NCBI RefSeq assembly: GCF_000568255.1
Contig: NZ_KK037166.1
Span: 10,422,927 to 10,486,926 of the forward strand
Direction of reading: 5' to 3'
Length of the DNA stretch: 64,000 nucleotides
Source of the DNA: Kutzneria sp. 744
GTDB taxonomy: Bacteria; Actinomycetota; Actinomycetes; Mycobacteriales; Pseudonocardiaceae
In this document: in pieces, positions 47,997 through 58,634 of the stretch
How positions within the stretch are numbered: the first letter of the stretch is position 1
How the letters are laid out: each line of letters begins with the position of its first letter
Translations under genes and position numbers: made by a program
The notes under the pieces: model-generated
The model's input: the letters and a program-made list of their open reading frames with translations, nothing else
What the model was told of the DNA's origin: nothing
Databases searched by the model: none

Positions 47997-48647
47997 CTAC
48001 TCCGTCTCCCTGAGCGCGGTGATCACGCTCCGCAGATGGTCGCGAGCCGCCTGCTCGGCGGCGTTCGGATCGTGGCGGGCGATCGCGTCGATGATCGCCA
48101 GATGCTCCGGCAGCGACACGTGTGTGCGGCCGTCCCGCATGGCCAGCCGGAACTGGTGCCGCACGATCTGGCCGTGCAGCCGCTCCAGCAGCTCACTCGC
48201 CACCGGCTGGTCGGCGATCTCGCGGACCAGCCGGTGCAGTTCCCGGTTCAGCGCCGAGTACTTCATCGGCTCCCCGTCCGCCACCGCCGCCCGCATCTGC
48301 TCGCCGACCCGCGTCAGCGCGTCGATCTGATCGTCGGTGGCCTTCACCGCGGCCTTGGCCGCGCACAGCCCCTCCAGCACCATGCGGCACTCGGTGATCG
48401 CCACGGCCTCGTCGACGGTGACGACTCGGACCCTGGCCCCCCGATTCGGGATGCGCTCGACCAGCCCCTCGGCGGTGAGGTCGATCAACGCCGCGCGCAC
48501 GCTGGCCCGGGTCACCCCGAACGTGTCGGCCAGCTCCGCCTCGACCAGGCGCTGGCCCGGCACGACGTCCCCGGCCAGCAGGGCCGCGCGCAGCGCCGCC
48601 ACCGTGGCCTGCCTGCCTGCCTCGCCCTCCTGAGGCGCGCTGGACAT
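47997..48647 (-). CDS. GntR-family regulator (FadR/FCD type)
   Basis: This 216-residue regulator has an N-terminal GntR winged helix (AALLAGDVVPGQRLVEAELA, then VTRASVRAALIDL, residues 15-75). The C-terminal FCD ligand domain has His residues in LNRELHRLVREIA and LPEHLAIIDAI and an Asp/His pair for a metal-bound organic acid. It heads the leftward operon ligK-galD-dioxygenase and is divergent from the permease/ligJ operon. It should control both through the dyad at 48687-48723, probably derepressing on a pathway acid. Confidence 0.9.
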   Translation of the reverse strand: MSSAPQEGEAGRQATVAALRAALLAGDVVPGQRLVEAELADTFGVTRASVRAALIDLTAEGLVERIPNRGARVRVVTVDEAVAITECRMVLEGLCAAKAAVKATDDQIDALTRVGEQMRAAVADGEPMKYSALNRELHRLVREIADQPVASELLERLHGQIVRHQFRLAMRDGRTHVSLPEHLAIIDAIARHDPNAAEQAARDHLRSVITALRETE

Positions 48648-48686
48648 GGGTGCTCCCTTCCTCGACGACGGACGCTAAGCATCTCA

Positions 48687-48723
48687 CACAAGATTGTCAA
48701 CAATCCTGTCGACAACTCTTGTG
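48687..48723. promoter_or_regulatory. nested palindromic operator of the gallate cluster
   Basis: The divergent promoter holds nested dyads. CACAAGA (48687-48693) pairs with TCTTGTG (48717-48723). Inside them are GATTGT-CA-ACAATC (48692-48705) and the perfect TGTCGACA (48707-48714). TTGTC/GACAA half-sites of this sort are typical of FCD-type GntR regulators. The site lies about 40 bases upstream of the GntR start and 54 bases upstream of the permease start, well placed to repress both. Confidence 0.65.
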
Positions 48724-48776
48724 ACGATCACGTCGTCAGAGCTACGGTTCGTGGCCATCGACCCGAGGGAGGGTTC

Positions 48777-50201
48777 ATGTCCAGCAGCGCGCAAGTGCCG
48801 ACGCGGGACCGGGCCGCCGTGCTGGCCAGGCTGGACCGGCTGCCGCGGCAGGCCGTGAGCCACGCCGCCACCGGCATCGTCGGTTTCGCGATGTTCGTGA
48901 TCTTCTACTGCAACTTCGACATCAACGTGTCGTTTCTCCAGACGTGCGGCCAGATCGTGCCGGCCTGCACCCCGGCCGTCGCGCAGTCCTGGCTGCCGCT
49001 GCCGGTCTGCGCCTATCTCGCCGGCTACGTCGTCGGCTGCCTGCTGATCGCCCCGCTGTCCGACCGCCTCGGCCGCCGGCCGGTGCTCGCGGGCTCGGTG
49101 GGCTTTGCCGCGCTGGGCTCGCTGATCGCCGCGGTCGCCGGCGACTACGGCACGTTCACCATCGGCCGCGCCATCACCGGCATCGCGATGGGGGCCGTAC
49201 TCGCCGTCGGCAACACCTACATCGGCGAACTCGCCCCGCACGGTGCCCGAGCCCGGTACACCGCAACGACTTTTGTGCTGTGCACGCTGGGCGCGATGGT
49301 GGGCATCGGACTCGGGCTGGTGCTCACCACGGAGGCCGCGCCGTTCCCCGAGGGCATGCCGGTCGCGTTCGGACTGGCCAGCGGCTGGCGCTGGATCCAT
49401 TGGGTGGCGGTCATTCTGGGCGTTCTCGCCGTAGTCGCCGCGTTACGACTGCCCGAATCCCCGCGCTGGCTGGTCGAACATCGCCGGATTGACGACGCGA
49501 CGGCGGTCGTCGCGAGGCTGGAGACCAGGGCGAAGGGCCCGCTGTCCGAGCCCGATTTGTCGACGGTGCCGCCGCCCGCCGAGCACGCGCAGCACGCCTA
49601 CCGCGAGCTGTTCGTGGATCGCCGATACCGAAACCGGGCGCTGCTGCTGGTCGCAATGTGGTTCACCGGCTACGCGACGGTCTTCTCCTACTCGACCGGC
49701 TCCACGGTCGTGCTGACCAGTCTGCACTTCACGCCGCCGGTGGCCGGCATGATCTCCGCCGCCGGCGGCGTCGGGTTCTTCGTGCAGGGCCTGTTCTCGG
49801 CCCGGTACTCCGAGGTGCTGGAGCGCCGCTACTGGCTGCCCGTGGGCGCGGCGATGACCGTGCTGGGCGCGGTGATCATCGCGTTGCTCGGCGCCGACAT
49901 CGGCTGGGCGCTGGCCGGCTCGTTCCTGGTGTTCTTCGGCTTCAACGTGTGGGTGCCGCCGACGTTCGCGCTGTCCGCGGAGAGCTTCCCGACCCGGGTC
50001 CGGTCCGCCGGCTTCGGCCTGGTGGACGGCATCGGCGTGCTCGGCGGGGCGATGGGCGTGCTGGTGATCGCCCCCTTGGTGCCGTTGCTCGCGCCGCTGC
50101 CGGCGCTGCTGCTGGTGTCGAGCTTCCTGGTGGTCGCCGCGGTGTTGGCCCAGTTCACGCCGCGTACCCGCAACCGCGCACTGGAGGAGCTGTCCCCGTG
50201 A
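48777..50201 (+). CDS. MFS transporter, aromatic-acid type
   Basis: This 474-residue, twelve-helix permease of the sugar/aromatic-acid symporter branch has PLSDRLGRRPVLAGS near residue 92, the GRAITGIAMGAVLAVGNTYI segment near residue 130 and LPESPRWLVEHRR near residue 222. The second half has ALSAESFPTRVRSAGFG near residue 398. It starts at ATG 48777 behind GAGGGAGGG. It overlaps ligJ by four bases and is controlled from the GntR dyad, so gallate or a similar phenolic acid is the likely cargo (inferred from context). Confidence 0.88.
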   Translation: MSSSAQVPTRDRAAVLARLDRLPRQAVSHAATGIVGFAMFVIFYCNFDINVSFLQTCGQIVPACTPAVAQSWLPLPVCAYLAGYVVGCLLIAPLSDRLGRRPVLAGSVGFAALGSLIAAVAGDYGTFTIGRAITGIAMGAVLAVGNTYIGELAPHGARARYTATTFVLCTLGAMVGIGLGLVLTTEAAPFPEGMPVAFGLASGWRWIHWVAVILGVLAVVAALRLPESPRWLVEHRRIDDATAVVARLETRAKGPLSEPDLSTVPPPAEHAQHAYRELFVDRRYRNRALLLVAMWFTGYATVFSYSTGSTVVLTSLHFTPPVAGMISAAGGVGFFVQGLFSARYSEVLERRYWLPVGAAMTVLGAVIIALLGADIGWALAGSFLVFFGFNVWVPPTFALSAESFPTRVRSAGFGLVDGIGVLGGAMGVLVIAPLVPLLAPLPALLLVSSFLVVAAVLAQFTPRTRNRALEELSP

Positions 50202-51193
50202 TCATCGACTGCCATGGCCATTACACGACCGCGCCGGCCGCGCATACGGCCTGGCGGGAGCACCAACTCGCCGGCGACGCACCGAAGTACCCGACCATCA
50301 CGGACGACGAGATCCGCGAGTCGGTGCAGGGCCAGTTGCGGGTCATGGACGAGCGCGGCATCGACCTGACGATCTTCTCGCCGCGCGCCTCCGCCATGGC
50401 CCACCACCTCGGCGACGAATCGACCAGCGCCGCCTGGGCTCGCGCGTGCAACGACCTTGTGCACCGCGTGGTCACGCTCCACCCGGGCCGGTTCGTGGGC
50501 GTCGGCCAGATGCCGCAGTCGCCGGGTGCGCCGATCGAACGGTCCATCGGCGAGCTCCGCCGCTGCGTCGAGGAACTGGGCTTTGTCGGCTGCAACGTGA
50601 ATCCCGACCCCAGCGGCGGGTACTGGACCGCGCCGCCGCTGACCGACCGCGGCTGGTATCCGTTCTACGAGGCGATGATCGAGCTGGACGTGCCGGCGAT
50701 GGTGCACGTGTCCGCGTCCGCGAACCCCGTCTTCCACGCCACCGGCGCGCACTACCTCAACGCCGACACGACCGCGTTCATGCAGCTGCTGCAGGGCGAC
50801 CTGTTCGCCGACCTGCCCGAGCTGCGGCTGGTGATCCCCCACGGCGGCGGCGCGGTCCCGTACCACTGGGGACGCTACCGCGGGCTCGCGGACATGCTTG
50901 CCCGGCCGGAGCCGGCCGAGCACGTGCTGGCGAACGTGTCCTTCGACACCTGCGTCTACCACCAGCCCGGCATCGATCTGCTGTTCGAGGTGATCGATGC
51001 GGACGCCGTGCTGTTCGGCTCGGAGACGCTCGGCGCGGTCCGCGGCGTGGACAGTCGGACCGGCCACCACTTCGACGACACCCGTCGGTACGTGGACGCG
51101 GCCGGGCTGTCCGAAGTGGACCGTGCCAAGGTCTACGAGCACAATGCCCGCCGGGTGTACCCACGCCTGAAGACGATCCCATCGCAGCTGTGA
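50198..51193 (+). CDS. ligJ: 4-oxalomesaconate hydratase (LigJ, amidohydrolase fold)
   Basis: This 331-residue amidohydrolase-fold enzyme matches LigJ along its length. It has an N-terminal IIDCHGHYTTAP with the metal-binding HGH, LTIFSPRASAMAHHLGD near residue 61 and NVNPDPSGGYWTAPPLTDRG near residue 138. MVHVSASANPVFHATGAHYL is near residue 168, IPHGGGAVPYHWGRYRG near residue 212 and FDTCVYHQPGIDLL near residue 250. LigJ hydrates 4-oxalomesaconate to 4-carboxy-4-hydroxy-2-oxoadipate. The GTG start overlaps the permease stop. It completes the lower pathway with GalD and LigK encoded on the other side of the promoter. Confidence 0.93.
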   Translation: MIIDCHGHYTTAPAAHTAWREHQLAGDAPKYPTITDDEIRESVQGQLRVMDERGIDLTIFSPRASAMAHHLGDESTSAAWARACNDLVHRVVTLHPGRFVGVGQMPQSPGAPIERSIGELRRCVEELGFVGCNVNPDPSGGYWTAPPLTDRGWYPFYEAMIELDVPAMVHVSASANPVFHATGAHYLNADTTAFMQLLQGDLFADLPELRLVIPHGGGAVPYHWGRYRGLADMLARPEPAEHVLANVSFDTCVYHQPGIDLLFEVIDADAVLFGSETLGAVRGVDSRTGHHFDDTRRYVDAAGLSEVDRAKVYEHNARRVYPRLKTIPSQL

Positions 51194-51408: not shown

Positions 51409-52509
51409 TCATGACATGCGCAGCACCGGTTTGAGCACCGCGCCGGAGTGCGCGGCGGCGAATGCCTCTTCAATGCGCTCGAACGGAAAATGGGTGACCA
51501 GCTCGTCGAACGGGAAGCGGCCCTGTCGGTGCAGCTCGATCAAGGTGGTGATCAGCGGGATGCTCCGCCCCTCGCCACCGAGGATGCCAATGATCCGCTT
51601 GCCCCACAAGGTGCTCAGGTGGTCCAGCTCGACCGTGGCGCCGGCCGGCGCGCCGCCGACGAGCGCACAGACCCCGCGCATGCCCACCGAGTCCGCGGCC
51701 TGGCGGCAGACGGCGACAACGCCGGTGCACTCCAGGCTGAAGTCGGCCGGCCCGCCGCAGATCTCGTGAACCGCGGCGACAGGGTCGGCGCCGGTGGCCT
51801 CGATCGTGTCGGTGGCGCCGAACCTGCTGGCCAGAGAAAGCCGCGAGGCGTGCCGGTCGACGGCGATGATCCGCGTGGCGCCGGTGTTGCGGGCCGCCAT
51901 GATCGCGGCGAGCCCGACCGAGCCCGCGCCGTAGACGACAAGTGCGGAGCCGACATGCGGACGCAGCACGTTGAGCACCGCGCCCGCGCCGGTCGACAGC
52001 CCGCAGGCGAGCGGCCCGAGCAGGTCGAGCGGGAGGTCCGGGGCAACCGGGACCAGCCCGCGGGCCGGCACGATCGCCTTGGTGGCAAACGAGGACTGGC
52101 CGAAGAAGTGGCTCGACAACGGCGTCCCGTCGAGGTCGTGCAGCGCGGTCGACCCGTCTGGACGGCGACCGCCGACCAGCAGGTCCGTCAGCCGCAGGCA
52201 GTAGCGCGGCTGACCGTCGAGGCAGTTGCGGCAGGCCCCGCACCACGGCCAGCCCAGCACCACGTGGTCGCCCACCTGGACGTGGTCGACGCCGGGCCCG
52301 AGCGCTTCCACCACACCGGCGCCCTCGTGCCCAAGCACGCCGGGCAGCGGAAACGGCAGATCGCCGTGGCGGGTGATCGAGTCGGTGTGGCAGATCCCGG
52401 TCGCGGCGACCCGGACCAGCACCTCGCCCGGCCGGGGCTCGTCGAGCAGCACATCACGCAGGCCGAACGAGCCGTGCAGTTCGTCCACCACCGCGGCGGT
52501 GATCTTCAT
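51409..52509 (-). CDS. zinc-dependent alcohol dehydrogenase (aryl-alcohol type)
   Basis: This 366-residue medium-chain dehydrogenase has a catalytic zinc Cys in TGICHTDSITRHG near residue 39 and GHEGAGVVEALG near residue 62. The structural zinc lobe is CGACRNCLDGQPRYC near residues 93-107, and the Rossmann motif is VVYGAGSVGLAAIMAA near residue 192. The nearest relatives are NAD-dependent benzyl/aryl-alcohol dehydrogenases (XylB/AreB-like). Its ATG overlaps the stop of the sirtuin gene, so it is translated from the same operon as the ADP-ribosylation pair. It also faces the end of ligJ, so an aromatic substrate fits either context. Confidence 0.88.
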   Translation of the reverse strand: MKITAAVVDELHGSFGLRDVLLDEPRPGEVLVRVAATGICHTDSITRHGDLPFPLPGVLGHEGAGVVEALGPGVDHVQVGDHVVLGWPWCGACRNCLDGQPRYCLRLTDLLVGGRRPDGSTALHDLDGTPLSSHFFGQSSFATKAIVPARGLVPVAPDLPLDLLGPLACGLSTGAGAVLNVLRPHVGSALVVYGAGSVGLAAIMAARNTGATRIIAVDRHASRLSLASRFGATDTIEATGADPVAAVHEICGGPADFSLECTGVVAVCRQAADSVGMRGVCALVGGAPAGATVELDHLSTLWGKRIIGILGGEGRSIPLITTLIELHRQGRFPFDELVTHFPFERIEEAFAAAHSGAVLKPVLRMS

Positions 52510-53363
52510 GTCCTGGCCTTTCGGTAGGTGCTGGCGAGATCCGCCAGCAACCCGGCGGCCTCCCTCGGTACGGCCAGGGCATGGCCCTCGAGGTCCGGCG
52601 GCACCGCGGGGTGTGCGGCGTTGATCCGGACCAGCCGAGCTCCCGGCACGAGCCGGGTCGCCGCCTCAACCGGCCAGCGAACCACCGACGGGGTGCTGAG
52701 CCCGGCCCCGATCTCGACCACCAGCGGCCGCGCGCCGGCGGGCAGACCTCGCCACCAGCCGGCGAGCTCTCGTCCGGTGGCGTCGTACGGTTCGCCGATG
52801 AACTCGGGTCCCTTGTGGACATTGAGGAAGACGGCTCCTCCGCAGTTCGGGCAGACCGGAATGGCCTCGTCGGCGACCGCGCCGCTGGCCGGGTCGTAGG
52901 CGGCCAACGCGGCCTCGATGATCGGCCGGCTCGGCCAGGTCTCGCCGCTGCACGGGAGTTCGCACTGGTAGCGGGCGTAGTCGCCCTGCGGGGTCCAGAC
53001 CCGCTCCGGTGCGAAGCCGTTGCGCTCAAACAGTCCGTCCACATTGGACGTCCAGACGAAGTGGTCCCGCTCACCGACCAGCTCGCGCAGCTGTTCGTAC
53101 ACCACGGCGGTCCCCGGGCCGAAGCGGATGTCGTCGACGTGCACCGCCCAGTAGCCCCACAGCCGGTGCGGCGGCAGCGGCAGGCCGATCAACTGATAGC
53201 GGGCACGCAGTCCGAGCCGGCGCAGGACCGGAAACAGCTCGGCGAACCGGTCGGTGTCGGCGTAGTCGTAACCTGCGGCGGCCGAGAGACCGGCACCCGC
53301 CGCCACCAGCACGTGGTCGGCCTCGTCGAACCAGCGGGACAGCGTGCGGATCAGATCGTCCAT
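52506..53363 (-). CDS. Sir2-family protein, class M (SirTM)-like ADP-ribosyltransferase
   Basis: This 285-residue sirtuin fold has a NAD motif VAAGAGLSAAAGYDY near residue 21, WTSNVDGLFERNGF near residue 105 and TPQGDYARYQCELPC near residue 125. A zinc module follows, with the second pair CPNCGG near residue 170, then VEIGAGLSTPSVVRWP. Deacetylase sirtuins have a catalytic His before the first zinc Cys; here the position reads Gln in PQGDY, as in class M sirtuins that mono-ADP-ribosylate proteins. It overlaps the macrodomain gene by 13 bases and the dehydrogenase gene by four. Deacetylase activity is thus unlikely, though untested. Confidence 0.83.
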   Translation of the reverse strand: MDDLIRTLSRWFDEADHVLVAAGAGLSAAAGYDYADTDRFAELFPVLRRLGLRARYQLIGLPLPPHRLWGYWAVHVDDIRFGPGTAVVYEQLRELVGERDHFVWTSNVDGLFERNGFAPERVWTPQGDYARYQCELPCSGETWPSRPIIEAALAAYDPASGAVADEAIPVCPNCGGAVFLNVHKGPEFIGEPYDATGRELAGWWRGLPAGARPLVVEIGAGLSTPSVVRWPVEAATRLVPGARLVRINAAHPAVPPDLEGHALAVPREAAGLLADLASTYRKART

Positions 53364-54352
53364 GTGGCTAGGTGCTCCTGGTATGCGGCGTCGTCGTCCG
53401 AGGCGAAAGTGGTGAAAACGACGCGGTCGAACCGGTTGGGACGCGTGCCGAGCCAGCCGGCGACGGCGTCGAGGGCGATCCGGGCGGCACGAGCCTTCGG
53501 GAAGCCGAACACGCCGGTGCTGATGCCGCAGAACGCGACCGTGCGGATGTCCTCGACCTCCGCGGCCAACTCGAGGCAGGCTCGATACGACCGGGCCAGT
53601 GCCTGTTCGTGCCACGGCTCTAGCAGGCCGTCGACGATCGGCCCCACCGTGTGCACCACGTAGCGGGCGGGCAGGTGGTACCCGCGGGTGATCTTTGCGG
53701 CGCCGGTCGTCTCCGGCGCCCCTTGCGCAGTCGCAATCGTGTGGCAGTCCTCGCGCAGCCACGGCCCGGCGGCGGCGTGGACGGCGTTGTCCACACAGTT
53801 GTGCATCGGCCGGAAACAACCGAGCAGTGCGCGGTTGGCGGCGTTGGCGACCGCGTCGGCGCGCAGCATCGTGATGTCGCCACGCCACAGCGCCGTCAGA
53901 TCGGCGGCCGGATATCGGGTCGCCGGCCAGATCTCCGCCACCGTGGGCACGGCCAGCGCGTCCGTTGCCATGCGCAGTGCGCGTTCCCCGCCCAGCAACG
54001 TGTCCAGAAGCGATGTGACGTGCGGCTCCAACGGCTCCGGCCTCCGGACCGTGAGCGCCGCACGCAACACCTGGCGGGGCGTGAGCCCTGTGTTCCGCCA
54101 CGTGCTCGCGCCGTAGCCGAGCGCCCGCACCGCGGCTTCCGCGATGCCGTCGAGCAGCTCCGGCGAGGCAGGCGGGGCCGTGGGCTGAAACGGCCGGTCG
54201 AGGAGGATCGCTTCACGGTACGCGCCCAGGGGCAGGCTGACGCGGAGGTCGCCGGCCGGCTTGCCGGGGTGGGGATTGGCGTTCTCGGTGGTGCGCCGGC
54301 CCGCGGCGGAAACGCCCTGCCCGCCGATGACGGGCCCTCGCTCGATGACCAT
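53351..54352 (-). CDS. zinc-type macrodomain protein (protein ADP-ribosylhydrolase)
   Basis: This 333-residue protein has an N-terminal helical extension (residues about 40-145) and a macrodomain (155-325). The domain shows LWRGDITMLRADAVANAANR near residue 154, zinc ligands in GCFRPMHNCVDNAVH near residue 177, VHTVGPIVDG near residue 232 and the phosphate loop AFCGISTGVFGFP near residue 272. The Cys-His-Cys set marks the zinc macrodomains that remove ADP-ribose placed by class M sirtuins. Its gene overlaps the sirtuin gene, giving a writer/eraser pair. A SnoaL-like gene lies 38 bases upstream in the same operon. Confidence 0.88.
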   Translation of the reverse strand: MVIERGPVIGGQGVSAAGRRTTENANPHPGKPAGDLRVSLPLGAYREAILLDRPFQPTAPPASPELLDGIAEAAVRALGYGASTWRNTGLTPRQVLRAALTVRRPEPLEPHVTSLLDTLLGGERALRMATDALAVPTVAEIWPATRYPAADLTALWRGDITMLRADAVANAANRALLGCFRPMHNCVDNAVHAAAGPWLREDCHTIATAQGAPETTGAAKITRGYHLPARYVVHTVGPIVDGLLEPWHEQALARSYRACLELAAEVEDIRTVAFCGISTGVFGFPKARAARIALDAVAGWLGTRPNRFDRVVFTTFASDDDAAYQEHLATWTI

Positions 54353-54390
54353 GATGGTTCGCTTTCGTGCCAGTCGTTTCGCCCGCCGGC

Positions 54391-55146
54391 TCAGAACAGG
54401 CCGTTGCGGTGCGGCAGCTCCGCCGGGACCGGCGCGATGACGTCCCAGTGCTCGACGATCTTGCCGCCGTCGACCCGGAACAGGTCCCAGTAGGCGACCG
54501 CCTGGCCGAACTCGCCCTCCGACTGGAGCAGCACGAGATCGCCTTCGGCCACGTCCCGGTGCACGGTCTTGTAGGCCAGGTTCTTGCCATCAGCCGCCCA
54601 GCGCGCGGCGGCGGCGCCGAAACCGTCCAGGCCGTCGGCCGCCTCGGGGTTGTGCTGGAGGTAGGTCTCGGTCGAGATGTAGTCGGTGAGCACGGAGTAG
54701 TCGGCGTCGATGAGCACGCGCTGCGCGAACTCGGCGACAACCGCGCGGCTCCCCTCGGTGTCCGCCAACGCGGCGGGCGCGGCGGCGCCGTCGGTCTGCG
54801 ACCGACCGCTGGCGGTCTTGCCGACCACCGGCGTCAGAGCGTCCCAGTGCTCGGCGAGCTTGCCGTTCTCCACCCGGAACAGGTCGAACGCGACCAGCGG
54901 CTCGGGGCCGAAGCCGTGGTAGATGCCGTGCAGAGCGACGAGGTCGCCGTCGGCGATCACCCGGGCGAGCTCGTAGCGGAAGCCGTCGGGCAGTCCGGCC
55001 ACCAAGCCGCGCAGCGCCTCTGGGCCGTCCGCGGCCAGCGAGCTGTGCTGCCGGTAGCCGGGCGCGACCCACCGGTCGACCGCCATCGTGTCCCGCTCGC
55101 CGAACAGCTCGCCCGCGGCCTTGAGCACCAGTTCTTTGTTGTCCAC
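54391..55146 (-). CDS. tandem SnoaL-like (NTF2-fold) protein
   Basis: This 251-residue cytoplasmic protein is made of two NTF2/SnoaL-like domains (about residues 1-110 and 125-245). Each has the pattern YRQHSSLAADGPEAL or YLQHNPEAADGLDGF followed by AFDLFRVENGKLAEHWD or YWDLFRVDGGKIVEHWD. The internal repeat implies duplication and fusion. Such domains act as isomerases, cyclases or binding proteins for small molecules. It is first in the operon with the macrodomain, sirtuin and dehydrogenase genes and could share their substrate. A truncated AraC regulator sits divergently upstream. Confidence 0.85.
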   Translation of the reverse strand: MDNKELVLKAAGELFGERDTMAVDRWVAPGYRQHSSLAADGPEALRGLVAGLPDGFRYELARVIADGDLVALHGIYHGFGPEPLVAFDLFRVENGKLAEHWDALTPVVGKTASGRSQTDGAAAPAALADTEGSRAVVAEFAQRVLIDADYSVLTDYISTETYLQHNPEAADGLDGFGAAAARWAADGKNLAYKTVHRDVAEGDLVLLQSEGEFGQAVAYWDLFRVDGGKIVEHWDVIAPVPAELPHRNGLF

Positions 55147-55229
55147 CGTTGGTCTCCCTCGTCTGGTCCGCGGACCCGTTCACCCGTCGTGACCAATCTG
55201 CCCGGGCAAGGGCGGCGGTACGAGGTAGA

Positions 55230-55480
55230 TTCAGGAATTGTGGTGGTCAAAAGTGGACACGTCACGCCGCGGGATCCGGTCGTCCAATTCGGCTTCAGCA
55301 ACCCTGAAAGGCCTCACCTCGGACTCGACGTGGTCGATTTCCGCACCCTGCGCGCCAGATTGTCGCCCGAGTCGGTGGCCGCAGTGCACCGTGCCGATTT
55401 CCAACAGGTGTTCCTGTTCACCGGCGGTGCCGCCTTCCCGATGGTCGATTTCGGCGAGCACCCCTGCACCGACCCGGCAC
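55230..55480 (+). pseudogene. N-terminal fragment of an AraC-family regulator
   Basis: A rightward frame starts near VVVKSGHVTPRDPVVQFGF. It continues through LDVVDFRTLRARLSPESV, then HRADFQQVFLFTGGAAFPMV, then DFGEHPC. This is the cupin-like sensor start of a group of actinobacterial AraC regulators (DF..L..R..P......DFH.l...t.G...h.vDf..hp). The match breaks off near 55470 and no AraC helix-turn-helix follows. It is divergent from the SnoaL operon and may be its former regulator. Confidence 0.55.
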
Positions 55481-55692: not shown

Positions 55693-56736
55693 TCACTGCC
55701 TCTCGGCCCTGTTGTCACTTGCCACGTCTGACGCGAATGCGGGCCCGGTGCGACGGCGACGCAGGGGTGGGCGGCGCATCCACGTTGCCCAGCGCCAGAG
55801 CCACTCCACGGGTCCGTAGTGGCAGCGGCGCAGCCACAGGGTGGACCAGAGCCACTGGATGGCGAGGATGCCGCCGGCGATGCCCACGACGGTGCCGGCG
55901 GTCCAGGCCTCGGGGTGGCCGCCGATGAGGCGGCCGATGACGAGCACCAAGGCGGTGGCGGTGAGGTAGTTGGTCAGGGCCATTCGGCCGAGCGGCGCGA
56001 ACACGGTCACGAGCACGGGCCCAAAGCGGGTGCGGAGCAGGAGAAGCATCAAGCAGATGTAGAGCCCGGCAAGCAGGAGGCCGGTCAGGGCGAGGGCCAG
56101 CGGGAAGTGGCGGTCGGTGGACGAGAGGCCGGACTGCCACCACAGGGCGGGCACGGCGGCGACGGCCAGCACCGGGGCCGCCAGGCGCACACCCCGGACG
56201 GTGTGGTCGATGACGTCGTACCGGACCAGGGCGGAGCCGAGCAGGAACAGGCCGGCGACGTAGGTGAAGCGGCCGTCGCCGGTGAGCAGTGATGTGGCGA
56301 GGAAGGCGGTGCCGAGCGGGGCGACGGCGGCGCGGGGCAGCCAGGTGGATGGCAGCAGCACGAGCAGGCCCATAACGGCGTAGGTGGACAGGATGTCGCC
56401 GTGCCACAGGAACACGAAGTGCGCCACACCGATGACCAACAACGCCAGCAACCGGCGCAGCAGAAGCAGTCGAGGGCTGGGGGTGCGGCCGGCGGCGGCG
56501 CGTAGCAGGAGGGAGAAGCCGACACCGAACAGCAGCGAGAAGATCGGCATGAAGCGCTGCTCCACGAACAGCCCGAACCCGGCCGGATCCACCACCTGTC
56601 CCGAGGTGGCGGCGAACCCTCCCTCGGCGGCTATCGGCTGCGCATTGGCCAGCAGGATCCCGCACAGCGCGAACCCGCGGACGACGTCGAGGGCCACGAT
56701 TCGACCGCGGTCGACCGGAGTGTCTTGGGTGGACAT
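55693..56736 (-). CDS. DUF418 multi-pass membrane protein
   Basis: This 347-residue polytopic protein opens with IVALDVVRGFALCGILLANA, the standard start of the DUF418/YeiB family. It has about nine hydrophobic segments, FSLLFGVGFSLLL near residue 65, LALLVIGVAHFVFLWHGDIL near residue 96 and the C-terminal PLGRMALTNYL and GPVEWLWRWATW motifs. The family is related to acyltransferase-3-like membrane proteins; no reaction has been established. ATG 56736 is chosen at MSTQDTPVDRG. It is divergent from a two-component operon. Confidence 0.88.
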   Translation of the reverse strand: MSTQDTPVDRGRIVALDVVRGFALCGILLANAQPIAAEGGFAATSGQVVDPAGFGLFVEQRFMPIFSLLFGVGFSLLLRAAAGRTPSPRLLLLRRLLALLVIGVAHFVFLWHGDILSTYAVMGLLVLLPSTWLPRAAVAPLGTAFLATSLLTGDGRFTYVAGLFLLGSALVRYDVIDHTVRGVRLAAPVLAVAAVPALWWQSGLSSTDRHFPLALALTGLLLAGLYICLMLLLLRTRFGPVLVTVFAPLGRMALTNYLTATALVLVIGRLIGGHPEAWTAGTVVGIAGGILAIQWLWSTLWLRRCHYGPVEWLWRWATWMRRPPLRRRRTGPAFASDVASDNRAERQ

Positions 56737-56856
56737 GGCCGTCGATCCTGGCCAGCCGGACCGACAGTCGGCATCAGGGCAAAGCACGATTGATGGGCCC
56801 GCGTTCGTACTTTCGGCCAGTGCTCCACCCCGGGCACGACTCCGTAGCCTGGCCGC

Positions 56857-57981
56857 GTGAACGTGTGGGGGCGGCTGGCGAGGATCGCTGCAGATGTCGT
56901 GTTCGGGGTGGTGTTCGCTGCCGCGCTCGGGTTTGAGGCTGCGCGCATCGCGACGAGTTGGGGCGCGGGTTACTGGCAGTTCGACCTGGCCGTTGGGGCC
57001 GTGGTGTGCGGCATCGCGCTGGTGGGCCGGCGTGATCCAGCCCGTCCGGCGGTCGCGGCGCTGGCCGTGGCCGCGGTTGCCGTTGTCGTCGTGGGATTCA
57101 CCGGCTGGCCGGGAGAACCAGGGCCCGCCATGGCCCTGGCGCTGTCGGTGCTGGTGGCCGCCGCGGTCCGGACGCTGCCGCCGCTACCGGCGACCGGCGT
57201 CGCGGTCGGCGGTCTCGGGGTGGCCGCGGGCAGTCTGCTCACCGCGCATGGTTCGCCCCTGCACTCGGGTGTGGTCCTGGCCAATGGGCTGGGCTGGCTG
57301 CTGGCCGTCGCCACGGGCCTGGCGCTGAGGCTGCGCCGGATCCGCCGGCTGGCAGTGATCGACCAGGTTCGCCGCGACGAACGTCTGGAGTTGGCGCGGG
57401 AACTGCACGATGTCGTTGCCCACCACATCACCGGCGTTGTCGTGCAGGCGCAGGCCGCCAGGATCGCCCGCCGCAGGCATCCGGAGCAGCTCGACGAGGC
57501 GTTGGCCGACATCGAGACGGCCAGCTCCGAGGCGCTGGCTGCGATGCGCCGGGTCGTGGGCCTGCTGCGTCACGCCGGCGACGCCGCGCCGGCCGGGACC
57601 GAGCACCTCTCCGATCTCGTGGCCCGCTTCGCCCGGCACGGGCCCGCCGTGAGCCTGCAGCTGCCCGAAGACCAGTCGGAGTGGCCGTACGAGATCACCA
57701 GCACCGTCCACCGGGTCGTGCGGGAGGCGTTGACCAACGTCGTCCGGCACGCCCCGAACGCGGGTCGCGCCACCGTGCAGGTGAGCCAGGAACCGGGGCA
57801 TGTCGCCGTCGAGGTCGCCGACGACGCCCCGGCGCCGGCCATGCGTCACCGCGGCGGCTACGGACTGATCGGACTCCGCGAACGCGTCGAAGCCCTCGGC
57901 GGCACGCTCACCGCCGGTCCGGGTCCAGAACGCGGCTGGTCCGTGGTGGCCCGGCTGCCCGTTCCGGCGGGCCGACGCTGA
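56857..57981 (+). CDS. NarL-type sensor histidine kinase (HisKA_3)
   Basis: This 374-residue kinase has about five membrane segments in the first 150 residues. The HisKA_3 box LELARELHDVVAHHITG has its phospho-acceptor His near residue 182. The HATPase has REALTNVVRHAPNAG near residue 291 and GGYGLIGLRERVEALGG near residue 332. The GTG start is close to the presumed promoter and has no clear ribosome site, so it may be leaderless. Its stop overlaps the start of the regulator (TGATG). The signal is unknown. Confidence 0.9.
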   Translation: MNVWGRLARIAADVVFGVVFAAALGFEAARIATSWGAGYWQFDLAVGAVVCGIALVGRRDPARPAVAALAVAAVAVVVVGFTGWPGEPGPAMALALSVLVAAAVRTLPPLPATGVAVGGLGVAAGSLLTAHGSPLHSGVVLANGLGWLLAVATGLALRLRRIRRLAVIDQVRRDERLELARELHDVVAHHITGVVVQAQAARIARRRHPEQLDEALADIETASSEALAAMRRVVGLLRHAGDAAPAGTEHLSDLVARFARHGPAVSLQLPEDQSEWPYEITSTVHRVVREALTNVVRHAPNAGRATVQVSQEPGHVAVEVADDAPAPAMRHRGGYGLIGLRERVEALGGTLTAGPGPERGWSVVARLPVPAGRR

Positions 57982-58634
57982 TGGGCATCACCGTGCTGCT
58001 GGCCGACGACCAGGCGATGATCCGCCGCGGGTTGCGGCTGATCCTGGAGGACCAGCCCGACATCACCGTGATCGGCGAGGCCGCCGACGGCCTTGAAGCT
58101 GTGGCCCTGGCCCGACGCCTCCGCCCCGACGTGTGCCTGGTCGACATCCGCATGCCTCGCGTCGACGGCATCCAGGTGACCCGCGCCCTGGCCGGTCCGG
58201 GCGTAGTGGATCCGCTGCGGGTGGTCGTGGTCACCACCTTCGACCTGGACGAGTATGTCTACGGCGCCCTTCACGGCGGCGCCGCCGGCTTCGTCCTCAA
58301 GGACGCCGGTCCCGGCCTGCTGGTCGAAGCCGTGCGCGCCGCCCATGCCGGCGACGCCCTCGTCTCGCCTTCGATCACCGTCCGCCTGCTGCGCCATCTC
58401 ACCGCCATCACCACCTCCCGCAGCGGCGTGCCCCGCGCCCTGTCCGACCGCGAGACCGAGGTCGCCCGCGCCGTCGCCCGTGGCCGCACCAACCAGGAGA
58501 TCGCCGCCGAGCTGTTCATCTCGCTGAGCACCGTCAAGAGCCACGTCGCCGGCATCCAGCACAAGCTGGGCCTGCGCAATCGCGTCGAGATCGCCGTATG
58601 GGCCTGGGAGAACGGCCTGTTGCGCGCCACCTGA
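57981..58634 (+). CDS. NarL/LuxR-family response regulator
   Basis: This 217-residue regulator has acidic residues ADDQ at 8-11, the phospho-acceptor Asp55 in CLVDIRMPR, Lys near residue 106 in FVLKDAG and a LuxR helix-turn-helix (LSDRETEVARAVARGRTNQE, then SLSTVKSHVAGIQHKLGL). It overlaps the kinase stop by one base. The closest candidates for control are its own operon and the divergent DUF418 gene. Confidence 0.92.
   Translation: MGITVLLADDQAMIRRGLRLILEDQPDITVIGEAADGLEAVALARRLRPDVCLVDIRMPRVDGIQVTRALAGPGVVDPLRVVVVTTFDLDEYVYGALHGGAAGFVLKDAGPGLLVEAVRAAHAGDALVSPSITVRLLRHLTAITTSRSGVPRALSDRETEVARAVARGRTNQEIAAELFISLSTVKSHVAGIQHKLGLRNRVEIAVWAWENGLLRAT

Follow-up and report, generated by a model that had tools for sequence, protein, structure and literature searches.

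A class M sirtuin and a zinc macrodomain predicted in a conserved unit with a double SnoaL protein and an alcohol dehydrogenase in Kutzneria sp. 744

A unit of four genes was analysed on the minus strand of a 64,000-nucleotide stretch of DNA (the window) from Kutzneria sp. 744 (contig NZ_KK037166.1, positions 10,422,927 to 10,486,926), the genome of which is 11.65 Mb in a single contig. The unit occupies positions 51409-55146 of the window and consists, in this order, of the genes for a double SnoaL protein (SNO), a zinc macrodomain (MAC), a QG-type sirtuin (SIR) and a zinc alcohol dehydrogenase (ADH). All four genes had been predicted here by an initial annotation made from the sequence (Table 1). 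The same annotation called them "fused into an operon"; the genes are not fused but overlap or abut. There is an overlap of 13 nt between MAC and SIR and one of 4 nt (ATGA) between SIR and ADH, and 38 nt separate SNO from MAC.

Table 1. Position and assignment of the features of the SirTM unit in the window
Feature	Position	Strand	Assignment	Remarks
SNO	54391..55146	-	Double SnoaL-like (NTF2-fold) protein, 251 aa	Two SnoaL-like stretches
MAC	53351..54352	-	Predicted zinc macrodomain, protein-ADP-ribose hydrolase type	Cys-His-Cys in LLGCFRPMHNC
SIR	52506..53363	-	Predicted class M (SirTM) sirtuin, 285 aa	ATG at 53363; Gln126; four zinc-ribbon Cys
ADH	51409..52509	-	Zinc- and NAD-type medium-chain alcohol dehydrogenase	Closest solved proteins: 5tnx and 1f8f (benzyl alcohol dehydrogenase)
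AraC-family regulator, N-terminal remnant	55222..55470	+		54% identity over 82 residues to the regulator of Kutzneria locus L049

As judged from its sequence, SIR is a class M (SirTM) sirtuin. Gln126, in the motif VWTPQGDYA, replaces the catalytic His (QG for the HG of other sirtuins), as the initial annotation had stated, and both Gln126 and Asn107 were invariant in the 59 aligned sirtuin rows. The sirtuin and macrodomain alignments had 59 rows because 8 of the 67 loci were excluded as broken, short or odd. The reading frame of SIR is open, and its four zinc Cys are retained. When SIR was compared with the PDB sequences at a threshold of E 0.001, the only matches were 8rsn (E 2.3e-36) and 5a3a (E 1.1e-20), both of which are class M sirtuin chains, the former in a macrodomain-sirtuin fusion. 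In a tree of 20 QG and 12 HG rows, a single branch with support of 99/98 parted QG from HG sequences, against a narrow outgroup in which 11 HG rows came from one bacterial family and the remaining one was a SIR2-family gene of this genome. The QG rows included plasmid-borne sequences from Treponema, Enterococcus, Vibrio and Niallia; the S. aureus and S. pyogenes enzymes were not among the tree rows. Class M was named on the basis of the QG residues and linkage to a macrodomain (PMC4518038). SIR has the Gln, overlaps the Zn-macrodomain gene MAC and groups in the tree apart from the HG sirtuins, and it was named class M on these three grounds.

The HG sirtuins of the same bacterial family matched SIR weakly (31-39% identity), and the catalytic His was present in those read on the coding strand. 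No MAC, SNO or ADH match (E 1e-5) was detected within about 19 kb of 15 such weaker-sirtuin loci, 10 of which were read as HG. The Pfam SIR2 model missed SIR both when proteins were scanned at E 0.1 and when the genome was searched in six frames. Pfam-based annotation may therefore overlook the SirTM class in actinobacteria. Split SIR matches were seen in several relatives (L092, L093, L094, L096, L097, L101, L103 and L104), in one of which (L101) ADH was also broken, and the MAC match of L098 was in three pieces; the SirTM locus seems to decay often.

One position of SIR departs from the characterised S. pyogenes enzyme. Arg192 of the S. pyogenes SirTM has been called conserved (PMC4518038), and it lies outside the features by which class M was named. 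The equivalent residue of SIR is His183, as mapped through the gapless stretch after the CPxC motif in the 5a3a alignment and through PMC4518038. Of the 59 rows, 40 have R at this position and 13 have H; the others have N (3), F (2) or Y (1). The His rows came from Kutzneria (four), Lentzea (seven), Actinoplanes (one) and the strain named Nocardia NRRL S-836. The SIR of K. buriramensis, which nests beside that of the window in the tree, keeps the Arg.

By its sequence, MAC is a Zn-Macro protein, and it is predicted to remove ADP-ribose from proteins. The Cys-His-Cys zinc set that the initial annotation had read in MAC was invariant in all 59 aligned MAC rows. The best PDB matches were 8rsi, 8rsm, 5kiv and 8rsl (E 1e-50 to 2e-43), and the closest protein family model was protein-ADP-ribose hydrolase NF003163, with a score of 265.7 bits against a cut-off of 272. 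The first 45 or so residues have no counterpart in relatives, and the true start may for this reason be downstream of the ATG at 54352. The earlier proposal of a class M writer/eraser pair is supported by the signatures of both predicted proteins, by their matches to solved chains and by the 99/98 branch.

The order SNO-MAC-SIR-ADH was found in all five Kutzneria genomes with SirTM (seven Kutzneria genomes were searched, including that of the window), which argues that the four genes are not chance neighbours. Across these five loci the block recurs within four different flanking contexts. Flanks beyond the block were common only to L029 and L030; an open reading frame comparison of the other Kutzneria flanks recovered an AraC gene (in L031 and L032, and as the remnant in the window) and one match of 37% between L029 and L031. 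Chance adjacency was rejected on these grounds.

A wider set of loci was obtained by scanning a collection of 84,980 species with two peptide patterns, a search that was not exhaustive and that returned 62 loci. The neighbours of SIR were then scored in 63 actinobacterial loci, comprising these 62, four further loci and the window, less four Bacillota loci; two of the 63 (L072 and L103) are in one genome. Genes within 6 kb of SIR were counted, and the counts are lower bounds as some loci lie at contig ends. MAC was near SIR in 58 of the 63 loci, always on the same strand. SNO, counted from 55% identity upwards over 200 aa, was near SIR in 46 loci, in 43 of them on the same strand, and either SNO or a single SnoaL gene was present in 49. 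Of the regulators, AraC-family genes on the opposite strand accompanied 44 loci and HxlR genes 7. The remaining neighbours were more varied, with an NmrA-type short-chain dehydrogenase/reductase (SDR) in 15 loci, ADH (at least 45% identity) in 13, aldehyde dehydrogenase (ALDH) in 4, a MoaF-like gene in 15 and a DsbA-like gene in 13; an ADH, SDR or ALDH was found in 27 of the 63. Plasmid-borne class M pairs of Enterococcus, Treponema and Vibrio (L136, L135 and L137) were accompanied by SDR or NAD(P)H-binding, PNPOx-family, NAD(P)H oxidoreductase and quinol monooxygenase genes, and no annotated lipoyl gene was present in the stretches inspected.

SNO was the constant partner. The SNO of the window was 58-87% identical to those of other SirTM loci. 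In the 39 loci where SIR, MAC and SNO each gave a match of at least 200 aa, SNO was the most conserved of the three in every case, with a median identity to the window of 77% compared to 60% for SIR and 57% for MAC. A whole-genome search of 49 SirTM genomes from among the 62 loci detected SNO in 43, and in two of the six without it (L077 and L079) SIR was flanked by a single SnoaL gene. A sample of 394 genomes from across the class had SirTM in three, including that of the window; SNO of at least 60% identity was present in these three and in one other, and two more genomes had relatives at 41-43%. A further sample consisted of 305 genomes of one genus (that of genome G317), inferred to be Streptomyces, and partly overlaps the genomes of the 84,980-species scan. 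SirTM was detected in 16 of these genomes and SNO (E 1e-80) in 22, so that SNO was present in 16/16 genomes with SirTM and in 6/289 without it (Fisher 4e-22, ignoring relatedness). In one of the genomes (G668) SIR looks split. In two others (G730 and G776) SNO and SirTM were on different contigs, and for this reason the tie between them seems to be more than synteny.

The genome of the window encodes a second double-SnoaL protein, 76% identical to SNO (G000:C1:2533176-2533928; L121:9177-9929). No SirTM, macrodomain or ADH match was found in the 20 kb surrounding this paralogue. As SNO is found without SirTM, it has a function of its own. Both lobes of SNO keep QH and EHWD motifs, the structure was predicted with a predicted local distance difference test score of 95.6, and the sequence profile matches 3g0k and three polyketide-cyclase-type chains. 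The retained motifs and the confident model suggest that SNO is probably an enzyme or a binding protein for a small molecule.

The link to the dehydrogenase was narrower. Conserved linkage between the pair and ADH, which the initial annotation had suggested looking for, was found in 10 Kutzneria and Lentzea loci; as a general context for SirTM it failed, the general link being to SnoaL. In 51 SirTM genomes searched for ADH, 10 (including that of the window) had an orthologue of at least 78% identity, all in Kutzneria or Lentzea and all adjoining SIR, at 0-101 nt from the SIR match, and the 4-nt overlap of SIR and ADH was kept in nine of these ten loci. Three of the eight rows of the Lentzea-like clade were without ADH. 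In two Streptomyces an ADH of 68-69% identity, with an aldehyde dehydrogenase gene after it, lies 2.8-3.9 kb from SIR, and a third has one of 48% near SIR. Two further SirTM genomes had a distant ADH of 65-68%, on the same contig about 9 kb from SIR in one (G456) and, in the other (G471, the same as G757), about 63 kb from a second copy of SIR that is split. An ADH of 65-66% was also found in three genomes of the class-wide sample without a SirTM match. At other loci an NmrA-type reductase, an aldehyde dehydrogenase or other genes occur. As ADH was near SIR in a minority of loci and related genes exist without SirTM, ADH was rejected as a general partner. All 12 of the 12 ADH orthologues compared keep the ten positions checked, which we take, by reference to the medium-chain dehydrogenase/reductase family, to be the zinc ligands, both catalytic and structural, and the NAD-type Asp. 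Because the SnoaL link is general and the ADH link is limited to a lineage, SNO is a better candidate than ADH for the partner or target.

The one substrate known for a SirTM, GcvH-L, is encoded within the operon (PMC4518038). The initial annotation considered class M pairs to be usually tied to GcvH-L and LplA2 and noted the absence of both here. The tie exists; "usually" was too strong, since lone Zn-Macro/SirTM pairs and fusions have also been described (PMC4518038, PMC11490716). The absence was confirmed, with neither GcvH-L nor LplA2 in the unit. A GcvH family search of this genome gave one match, of canonical appearance, beside GcvT-like and GlyA-like open reading frames (named from their translations), and the lipoate ligase model TIGR00545 had no match in the genome. 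The possibility that GcvH-L and LplA2 are encoded elsewhere in the genome was accordingly rejected. Among 11 genomes searched with the LplA model, 9, including this one, gave no match, and the two matches elsewhere were below the cut-off. Four of 10 relatives (G002, G449, G450 and G451) had another full GcvH match, which lies apart from the SirTM locus. The modification of GcvH-L by SirTM is greatly stimulated by lipoylation (PMC4518038); as the unit has no lipoyl component and the genome no LplA match, this reaction cannot occur here in that form.

The unit was compared with the extended SirTM operon of Staphylococcaceae and Lactobacillales (GcvH-L, Zn-Macro, SirTM, LplA2, OYE and LLM; Rack 2015, PMC4518038). 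The two share a QG class M sirtuin, a Cys-His-Cys Zn-macrodomain, overlapping genes and nearby oxidoreductases, and both have a partner gene just before the macrodomain and an enzyme gene just after the sirtuin. Unlike the extended operon, the unit has no lipoyl gene, and SNO and ADH (or SDR or ALDH) are present instead. The order SNO-MAC-SIR-ADH parallels the operon order GcvH-L, Zn-Macro, SirTM, LplA (Figure 1 legend, PMC11490716), with SNO in the position of GcvH-L and ADH in that of LplA. The minimal-operon Zn-Macro/SirTM pairs and the fungal Mfs1 fusions (PMC4518038, PMC11490716) also have the same pair and no lipoyl genes, but the actinobacterial loci differ from them in the conserved SnoaL partner, the AraC or HxlR regulator and the NAD-type oxidoreductases. 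The SNO-linked locus is a novel form of the known SirTM/Zn-Macro signalling rather than a system of a different kind.

In relatives, a fuller-length version of the AraC regulator adjoins SNO and is divergent from the unit. In the window about 82 N-terminal residues match these longer regulators, and no match to their helix-turn-helix part was detected in the window at E<=1. As the divergent regulator is reduced to a remnant, local control of the unit may be lost in this strain. A consensus scan for promoters and terminators gave no site, and the GC-rich host makes such a scan uninformative. The flanking genes seem unrelated to the unit: on one side (47997-51193) they encode a GntR regulator, a major facilitator superfamily transporter and an amidohydrolase, and on the other (55693-58634) a two-component pair and a DUF418 protein. 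No relative was confirmed among viral contigs. Matches were found in 17 plasmid records, all below 60% identity, the best being a Streptomyces plasmid at 57%.

Our preferred reading, to which a probability of roughly 0.5 was assigned, is that the unit encodes a reversible mono-ADP-ribosylation module in which SNO is the likeliest substrate and ADH has an accessory redox role. SIR would transfer ADP-ribose from NAD+ to a dedicated partner protein, and MAC would take it off again; this partner would be SNO, in the position held by GcvH-L in the known operons. We infer that SNO, with its retained pocket motifs, and ADH, an NAD-dependent zinc enzyme, would act on an electrophilic or carbonyl compound, and that ADP-ribosylation would keep SNO off until stress. 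The companion genes, including those of the plasmid-borne pairs, point to electrophile or redox handling, and this fits the oxidative-stress role proposed for SirTM/Zn-Macro systems (PMC4518038, PMC11490716). Several observations weigh against a SNO-directed module. SIR has His183 in place of Arg192, a residue the mutation of which sharply lowered the activity of SpySirTM (PMC4518038). The operon encodes no lipoylated carrier, though lipoylation boosted the known reaction. Neither SNO nor a single SnoaL gene was within 6 kb of SIR in 14 of the 63 loci; SNO was elsewhere in the genome in six of these and absent from four, the other four genomes being outside the search. SNO also occurs without SirTM, in the six Streptomyces and as the 76% paralogue, and its enzyme-like motifs suggest that it may be just an enzyme of the same regulon.

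The enzyme-like motifs of SNO and its occurrence without SirTM would also suit a writer/eraser pair that acts on one or more proteins encoded elsewhere, with SNO, ADH and the SDR, ALDH, MoaF and DsbA genes being merely members of the same stress regulon. The mixed accessory genes, which swap between loci, are in keeping with this, and the divergent AraC or HxlR genes suggest one regulon. Such an off-operon target was judged rather unlikely, as SNO tracks SirTM genome by genome in Streptomyces, twice off-contig, and as the sole known substrate of a SirTM is operon-encoded. That ADH is itself the modified protein was another proposal of the initial annotation, which had named the dehydrogenase or the SnoaL protein as the possible target; the activity of ADH would then be switched by ADP-ribose. 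The recurrent ATGA overlap and the immediate proximity to SIR of every ADH of at least 78% identity speak for it; the small share of loci with ADH, its absence from part of the Lentzea-like clade, its presence in genomes without a SirTM match and the intact zinc and NAD ligand positions, as in a working enzyme, make it improbable. A similarly small chance was given to SIR being, owing to His183, no longer a protein ADP-ribosyltransferase, for example hydrolysing NAD+ or using a small-molecule acceptor, in a partly decayed locus. In favour of this are the exchange of Arg192 (for His in 13 rows, and for N, F or Y in 6), the regulator remnant and the split SIR matches of relatives, but the open frame, Asn107, Gln126, the four zinc Cys and the overlapping gene order are all kept, the neighbouring K. 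buriramensis SIR retains the Arg, and the spread of the His rows over several genera argues for a tolerated state.

A more far-reaching form of the preferred SNO-directed reading is put forward tentatively, at somewhat less than even odds. In this form, SirTM signalling in actinobacteria would be lipoyl-free, with a tandem SnoaL protein instead of lipoylated GcvH-L as the ADP-ribosylated carrier or enzyme, and SNO would be the first class M substrate other than GcvH-L; in Kutzneria and Lentzea the module would be translationally coupled to a benzyl-alcohol-type dehydrogenase, with the catalytic Arg traded for His in most members.

No description of an actinobacterial SNO-linked SirTM locus was found in the open-licence literature (supplements being outside the scope of the search), and no open-licence PMC paper was found that contained both "macrodomain" and "SnoaL". 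The terms "actinobacter", "actinomy", "streptomyces", "nocardi" and "alcohol dehydrogenase" had zero occurrences in the main texts of PMC4518038 and PMC11490716. A paper that brings SnoaL and sirtuin together (PMC4608573) was set aside; its subject is a fungal NTF2-like protein with DUF1348. According to a 2024 paper (PMC11490716), GcvH-L is the sole known target of SirTM, and the targets of the other SirTM/Zn-Macro pairs are unknown. The co-occurrence of SNO and SirTM across actinobacteria provides a single, directly testable target candidate in soil bacteria, and would separate SirTM signalling from lipoylation and from pathogens, its usual framing.

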